Part shown: piece by piece, positions 1 to 795 of the stretch
Layout of the letters: each line of letters begins with the position of its first letter
Position numbering within the stretch: position 1 is the first letter of the stretch
Origin: Hysterium pulicare CBS 123377
Taxonomy: Eukaryota > Ascomycota > Dothideomycetes > Hysteriales > Hysteriaceae
DNA: 64,000 nt
NCBI GenBank assembly: GCA_000467715.1
Contig: AJFK01000217.1
Span: 1 to 64,000, forward strand
Direction of reading: 5' to 3'
The notes under the pieces: model-generated
The model's input: only the letters and a program-made list of their open reading frames with translations
Told to the model about the DNA's origin: nothing
The model's database searches: none
Position numbers and translations under genes: made by a program

Positions 1-149
1 GCTAGTCACGTGACTAGTCCTCAAACAGATATATTGTAGCTGCTTTCTAAGGTTCGTTCCCTACGGACCTTTGTAGACTAATAAAGTGAATGTCCAAATC
101 GTAACATAGTGCAAGACTAAACAATATAGGGAATGGACATCCGCGAACT

Positions 150-157
150 AAAAAAAA
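150..157 (-). terminator. RNA polymerase III terminator
   Basis: A run of eight T on the minus strand begins 21 nt after the discriminator base of the tRNA, which is the normal place and form of a Pol III stop. It argues that this locus is or was a Pol III gene, even though its B box is now interrupted. Confidence 0.6.
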
Positions 158-197
158 TGAATTAATCAAATGAATGTACTCCCCCACGTGGGCTCGA

Positions 198-248
198 CTT
201 TTCGTACGTTAGAATATGTCCAAATAATGAAGAGAACGATCTACTTAC
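198..248 (-). other. spliceosomal-type intron 2 in the tRNA T loop
   Basis: 51 nt, read on the minus strand. It begins GTAAGTAG, carries a branch-like TTCTAAC about 14 nt from the end, and ends AAAAG. Removing it restores the seven-base loop TTCGAGC between perfectly paired CGTGG and CCACG. It interrupts the internal B-box promoter. Confidence 0.75.
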
Positions 249-294
249 ACCACGAACCTCTCGATTGCATGAGATAACAGTCGAACGCGCTAGC

Positions 295-380
295 CTAATT
301 GGAAGAGTTAGTGACTGATGAATTATTGGAGATCGTTCCCGAGATTGTGTTTTGGACATATCCTGAGATTATCAACTTAC
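295..380 (-). other. spliceosomal-type intron 1 in the tRNA D loop
   Basis: 86 nt, read on the minus strand. It begins GTAAGTTG, has a fungal branch-site match CACTAAC 18 nt before the 3' end, and ends AATTAG. Removing it restores the D loop AATTGGCTA exactly. Its middle (330-364) is the reverse complement, with a few mismatches, of the middle of the second intron. Confidence 0.75.
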
Positions 381-398
381 CAATTGCGCCATGGAGGA

Positions 399-795
399 CT
401 TATTTGTTGAGAAACTTTCCATTTTTTAGCAATATATAGGCGGGTATTTTTTTTAAGCTAAGTTTTTTAAGAAGGAGTCGCATGAAGCCTCGGTGTGACT
501 ACTCAGTGACTGAGAGACCTCGGTAGGAAATAACATCACGACAGCGTCCGTGTTGTCGACACTCGTGAGAAGACGATCAAAGCTCCCAAACCCGAAGTCC
601 TAAAGTTCCATAATCGTTCCATCTCCAAGCTGCATCTGTCAGAAAAAGGAGGCGCTTGAAGCTAGCCAAATGAAGATGTAGCAGGTGTATTTTTCACTTG
701 TGACTCAGCGACCGTATTGAAAGCATCCTCGGCTGTGGAACCTTCCTCCCATCTGAGCATTGTTGATATGTATAATGCCTTTAGCTTGTTAATTG
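399..795. other. intergenic, tRNA upstream side
   Basis: No coding signal. It holds the 5' flank of the minus-strand tRNA and the leader of the next gene. I see short A/T runs but no repeat or RNA gene. Confidence 0.5.

Follow-up and report, generated by a model that had tools for sequence, protein, structure and literature searches.

At least three, and probably four, tRNA genes of the ascomycete Hysterium pulicare, among them the sole tRNA-Asn gene that we found, carry introns of the kind that interrupts mRNAs, and the machinery that splices messages in this fungus probably has to splice tRNAs too, a role not known for it. Judged from the DNA, these are very probably functional nuclear genes that are made by RNA polymerase III (Pol III) and interrupted by U2-type spliceosomal introns, with precursors that would be processed by the spliceosome and then by the tRNA endonuclease.

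The tRNA-Asn gene lies close to the start of its contig (C172; the assembly comprises 37.2 Mb in 596 contigs), within the stretch of 64,000 nucleotides analysed here and referred to as the window. When inserts of 86 and 51 nt and an ordinary 9-nt tRNA intron are removed from the minus strand between 398 and 179, a tRNA-Asn(GUU) of 74 nt remains in which, according to ARAGORN, every stem is paired. The complete cloverleaf and the ordinary intron of the original prediction were thus reproduced. The features of the locus are as follows.

432..438, minus strand: TATA-like box some 40 nt 5' of the tRNA, with TATA at -40 and -38
381..398, minus strand: exon 1 of tRNA-Asn(GUU), from the 5' strand of the acceptor stem through G18, containing the A box (ARAGORN)
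391-381, minus strand: A box, TGGCGCAATTG, unbroken in the DNA
295..380, minus strand: intron 1, 86 nt, in the D loop between G18 and G19; GTAAGT...CTAAC...TTAG
307..311, minus strand: CTAAC branch-site match of intron 1, its A 13 nt before the intron end
249..294, minus strand: exon 2, from G19 through U54, carrying the anticodon arm (ARAGORN)
266..274, minus strand: ordinary 9-nt tRNA intron, TCTCATGCA, after A37; its excision gives tRNA-Asn(gtt)
198..248, minus strand: intron 2, 51 nt, in the T loop between U54 and U55, splitting the B box; GTAAGT...CTAAC...AAAG
208..212, minus strand: CTAAC branch-site match of intron 2, its A 11 nt before the intron end
179..197, minus strand: exon 3, from U55 through the discriminator base G73 (ARAGORN)
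150..157, minus strand: stretch of eight T that follows the tRNA at a distance of 21 nt and resembles a Pol III terminator

The coordinates, lengths and motifs of the predicted two-intron anatomy all hold. ARAGORN detected the tRNA after joint excision of 380-295 and 248-198, but not in the unspliced sequence or after either single excision, and neither ARAGORN nor Rfam at its gathering score reported any tRNA in the untouched 64-kb window. The borders of the inserts are constrained by the tRNA fold, which allows intron 2 one placement and intron 1 three. With the 9-nt intron retained, ARAGORN shifts its borders and calls the gene Ala(ggc); cut at 37/38, the product is read as Asn(gtt).

The two Asn introns are complementary to each other over about 14 and about 11 nt (window positions 351-364 with 211-224, and 330-340 with 232-242). 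The predicted duplex has an energy of -33.7 kcal/mol, compared with -15.1 (sd 3.3) for single-base shuffles, none of 2000 of which was as low, and no such mutual pairing is seen between the two introns of the tRNA-Arg gene described below (-6.7 kcal/mol). The complementarity could stem from an inverted duplication that gave rise to both introns, or could form a helix framing exon 2. The element ATGTCCAAAT (at most one mismatch) occurs three times inside 270 bp at the locus (window 90-99, 216-225 and 350-359), and 11 times across the window where 4.9 matches are expected.

The original prediction had called for a search of other tRNA genes for similar introns, and such introns were found in Lys, Arg and probably Gly genes. 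The tRNA-Lys(UUU) gene (contig C80), which turned up by accident in a search for Asn genes with AGCGCGNNNGACTGTTA, is split in its T arm at 53|54 by a 78-nt insert (GTATGT..GCTAAC..TAG) and has no ordinary intron that would need the endonuclease; the CTAAC of its insert (locus L034) falls within the loop of an 8-bp hairpin predicted there, a position that could hinder U2. Two 51-nt inserts interrupt tRNA-Arg(UCG) (C450), one in the D loop (GTAAGT..CTAAC..CAG) and one at 53|54 (GTAATT..CTAAC..CAG), and this gene also has an ordinary 11-nt intron. In tRNA-Gly(UCC) (C578) a 48-nt insert (GTACGT..GCTAAC..CAG) sits in the variable region, again together with an ordinary intron. Once all introns are removed, ARAGORN reads fully paired Asn(gtt), Lys(ttt), Arg(tcg) and Gly(tcc), each a complete cloverleaf. 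Asn, Lys and Arg are clear cases. Gly is graded as probable because the uncut gene can also be read by ARAGORN with a single 67-nt anticodon-loop intron, although this alternative is poorer: it leaves a T-T mismatch in the anticodon stem and makes the body 78 nt long, whereas the two-intron reading pairs all five positions of that stem and gives a body of 71 nt.

Single GTRNGT..AG excisions at loci L001-L099 (5842 variants) generated tRNAs from Lys (entered twice, as L034 and L066) and Gly only; Arg was missed because both of its inserts must be removed. A pattern combining the CTAAC branch site, AG and the T loop matched 12 places, compared with 17 in its control, recovering Lys and Gly and adding Arg. 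Of the nine other places, one (C213:796) was checked and gave no tRNA and eight were set aside because the base preceding the T loop was not G. Paired excisions (86 variants over 109 loci and four in the window) produced tRNAs from Asn and Arg only, the reversed-sequence control being confined to single excisions, in which none of 11,486 variants contained a tRNA. Among the 114 matches of YAGTTCRANYCC (158 in the control), 35 were examined and two, Lys and Arg, were real. Single excisions at the 25 matches of TRGNNNARTGGTRWGT (28 in the control) yielded no tRNA, and ARAGORN found none at the nine matches of GCGNNNNGACTGTTA (14 in the control), a pattern that is one base out of register and misses its target.

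All six inserts (two in Asn, one in Lys, two in Arg and one in Gly) have GT-AG borders and an exact CTAAC whose branch A lies 10-14 nt before the insert end, and five of the six have a GTRNGT 5' site, so that in 5' site and branch site they match the U2 type. The pattern that found the Arg gene required the CTAAC/AG end of its second intron, yet the GTAAGT..CTAAC..CAG of its D-loop insert is independent of that pattern. Against the U2 reading stand the GTAATT of Arg intron 2, a weak 5' site, and the AAG at the 3' end of Asn intron 2. For comparison, three introns of an aconitase gene in the window, accepted because the protein reading continues across them, have 5' sites GTATGT, GTCAGT and GTACGC and branch sites CTGAC, CTAAT and CTAAT; the signals of the tRNA inserts are thus at least equally strong. 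(In keeping with a fungal genome, one of the ten predicted proteins that were scanned carries Fungal_trans and Zn2Cys6 domains.)

An origin of the interrupted tRNAs by chance was rejected, as neither shuffled inserts nor reversed sequence reproduced them. In composition-matched shuffled inserts, terminal GT-AG with CTAAC in place arises, for each insert and placement, with a probability of roughly 2e-5 to 4e-5. The pattern GTAAGT-N30..60-CTAAC-N4..16-AG, which misses the longer gap of Asn intron 1, occurs at two places (three rows) in the window compared with a shuffle mean of 0.36, and one of 100 shuffles reached three. At 48-86 nt the inserts fall short of the size of group I and group II introns, and a scan of the window gave no Rfam match at gathering score. 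Introners, which are mobile intron families, were likewise rejected as the source of the Asn introns, since window positions 1-520 match in the genome only themselves and one partial copy; the inserts of Asn, Lys and Gly, which were the ones compared, do not match one another.

That partial copy (L038, G000:C88:24017-24213), which together with the window gene is among the seven matches of TRGNNNARTNGGTAAGT (nine in the control), covers the Asn upstream region, exon 1 and intron 1, with a further 8 nt of exon 2, at 79-81% identity, the rest having been lost. It retains GTAAGT and TTAG, and its CTAAC has become CGAAC. L038 looks like a truncated pseudogene, and it shows that Asn intron 1 predates the duplication from which L038 arose.

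The flanks of the interrupted genes resemble those of the other tRNA genes. TATA is present between -60 and -25 in 17 of 23 tRNA loci, and a run of at least five T within 25 nt downstream in 21 of the 23, with Asn, Lys and Gly in both groups; this set includes one doubtful locus (L019, see below) and leaves out Arg, which has TATA at -44 and seven T at +6. The longest internal T run is four in any of the 23 loci and in Arg. The original prediction maintained that the introns would deprive the precursor of a normal B box. This is true of Asn, in which six of the nine fixed B-box bases are kept and the box is broken, but not in general: eight of nine are kept in Lys and Arg, where G53 is supplied by the AG of the intron itself, and all nine in Gly. 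With regard to the promoter elements of the Asn gene, the prediction also needs correction in that the A box at 391-381 is intact.

The number of intact tRNA-Asn(GUU) genes, proposed as a check on whether the interrupted class must function, is zero as far as two anticodon-region patterns go, although a divergent gene could escape them. The eight places matched by AGCGCGNNNGACTGTTA (ordinary intron allowed, at most one mismatch; 14 places for the reversed pattern) are the window gene, tRNA-Lys(UUU) and six in which ARAGORN finds no tRNA, and thus include no second Asn gene; the pattern has 14 fixed bases, such that an Asn gene differing at two or more would be missed. Without the ordinary intron the Asn pattern matched four places, three of which are not Asn genes and the fourth of which is the Lys gene. 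A DNA search of the genome with the spliced tRNA gave zero matches and missed even its own locus, and is therefore uninformative. No intact Lys(UUU) or Arg(UCG) gene appeared in a first-look survey, which scored 63 of 1229 tRNA candidates, or in the search with the intron-less Asn pattern, neither of which is exhaustive.

Four genes, those for Gln, Asn, Lys and Arg, escaped the first-look survey. Adding these, the Gln gene lying beside L015, to 19 of the 20 survey matches gives about 23 nuclear-looking tRNA genes; the remaining match, L019, is not counted since it lacks both TATA and a T-run. Four of the approximately 23 carry mRNA-type inserts, a figure that, given the partial survey, is not a rate. 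On the same coverage, about half of the usual isoacceptors were not located. Nor was initiator tRNA-Met found: GGGCCCATAACCC, the vertebrate form, gave two matches, neither of them a tRNA, and GGGCTCATAACCC gave none. Across L001-L020, many tRNA genes have ordinary anticodon-loop introns and anticodons seldom repeat. L019 itself (1501-1571) is tRNA-like, with an undetermined ARAGORN call, and is possibly organellar, foreign or a pseudogene.

It could be argued that the interrupted loci are dead tRNA copies, broken up by chance or by elements now in decay, while intact genes elsewhere serve translation. The existence of a decayed, truncated Asn copy (L038) and the limited extent of the genome survey lend this some weight. 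The exons of Asn, Lys and Arg are nevertheless fully paired and splice signals stand at the borders of all six inserts; intact Asn, Lys(UUU) and Arg(UCG) genes did not turn up in searches that were not exhaustive; and in the dead copy most of the tRNA is gone and CTAAC has become CGAAC. We consider dead copies unlikely. The original prediction had left the choice between an unusual expression route and a dead, invaded copy. The former is favoured by the paired tRNAs, the splice signals, the Pol III-like flanks, the failure of two patterns to find an intact Asn gene and the separate decayed copy, which shows what decay looks like.

The D- and T-loop positions of the inserts resemble those of ectopic bulge-helix-bulge introns cut by the tRNA splicing endonuclease, in the manner of Cyanidioschyzon and nucleomorphs (PMC3978253, PMC4090602), and Asn intron 1 in its best placement forms three of the four central-helix pairs. 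Such introns would not be expected to carry GT-AG and CTAAC in six cases out of six, and a four-pair central helix, the sole element scored (intron bases 2-5 against bases 2-5 of the 3' exon), is formed by none of the six inserts in any placement, the other five making zero to two pairs. This explanation therefore appears extremely improbable. Alternatively, the introns may be truly spliceosomal while the tRNA is excised from a Pol II transcript and is not a Pol III product. Spliceosomes usually act on Pol II products, and the split B box of Asn keeps six of nine fixed bases. Against this, TATA near -40 and seven or eight T just downstream are placed as in other tRNA genes, there is no internal run of five T, and the B-box bases number eight of nine in Lys and Arg, whose introns end in AG, and nine of nine in Gly. 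We regard a Pol II origin as very unlikely. The main claim of the original prediction, that a nuclear tRNA gene carries two spliceosomal-type introns, is upheld at the level of the sequence and is strengthened by Lys, Arg and probably Gly.

We propose that Pol III is directed by the upstream TATA together with the intact A box and transcribes as far as the T-run. The spliceosome would then cut out the GU-AG introns by way of their GTAAGT-like 5' sites and CTAAC branch sites, restoring the D/T elbow, after which the RNA would fold and RNase P and RNase Z would trim its ends. In Asn, Arg and Gly, the tRNA endonuclease and ligase would finally remove the intron at 37/38, whereas the Lys precursor would need the spliceosome only. 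RNase P, RNase Z and the tRNA endonuclease require a folded tRNA body, on which the proposed order is based. The DNA shows the anatomy, its recurrence in several genes, the splice signals, the Pol III-like flanks and the failure of two patterns to find an intact tRNA-Asn gene; that the genes are transcribed and functional, and that a U2-type spliceosome splices the precursors in this order, is inferred.

The nearest precedents are the introns of U6 snRNA and of fungal rRNA, both of which are spliceosomal introns in non-Pol II transcripts. The fission yeast U6 snRNA gene contains an mRNA-type intron in a Pol III transcript, thought to have originated by reverse splicing (PMC10484740). U6 is itself part of the spliceosome, whereas the hosts described here are tRNAs with up to two such introns per gene, in some cases beside an ordinary tRNA intron. 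In lichen and other ascomycete fungi, rRNA genes likewise harbour short, ectopic GT-AG spliceosomal introns, for example of 57 bp, in a non-coding, non-Pol II RNA (PMC8527467), which is there Pol I rRNA and here Pol III tRNA. In Cyanidioschyzon and cryptophyte nucleomorphs, ectopic introns whose removal is ascribed to the tRNA endonuclease interrupt tRNA genes in the D arm, the anticodon arm and the T arm (PMC3978253, PMC4090602). These have bulge-helix-bulge or undefined motifs and, in Guillardia theta, lengths of 3-24 nt, in contrast with the 48-86 nt, GT-AG and CTAAC seen here. The open-access literature, which leaves subscription journals mostly uncovered, contained no description that we found of spliceosomal introns in tRNA genes; an earlier report is possible.

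If this reading is true, Pol III, the spliceosome and the tRNA endonuclease all act on one RNA from an essential tRNA gene, translation depends directly on splicing, and splicing is possible in transcripts that are presumably uncapped and have exons down to 18 nt. The idea put forward for U6, that introns arise by reverse splicing into abundant small RNAs, would become testable, and interrupted genes of this kind may be missing from tRNA gene catalogues. We would give an even chance to the broader proposition that in this fungus much of the tRNA supply, including the only tRNA-Asn, is under the control of the spliceosome, that several essential Pol III precursors each depend on two splicing machines acting in a set order, and that more such genes are hidden from tRNA finders by their split elbow loops.
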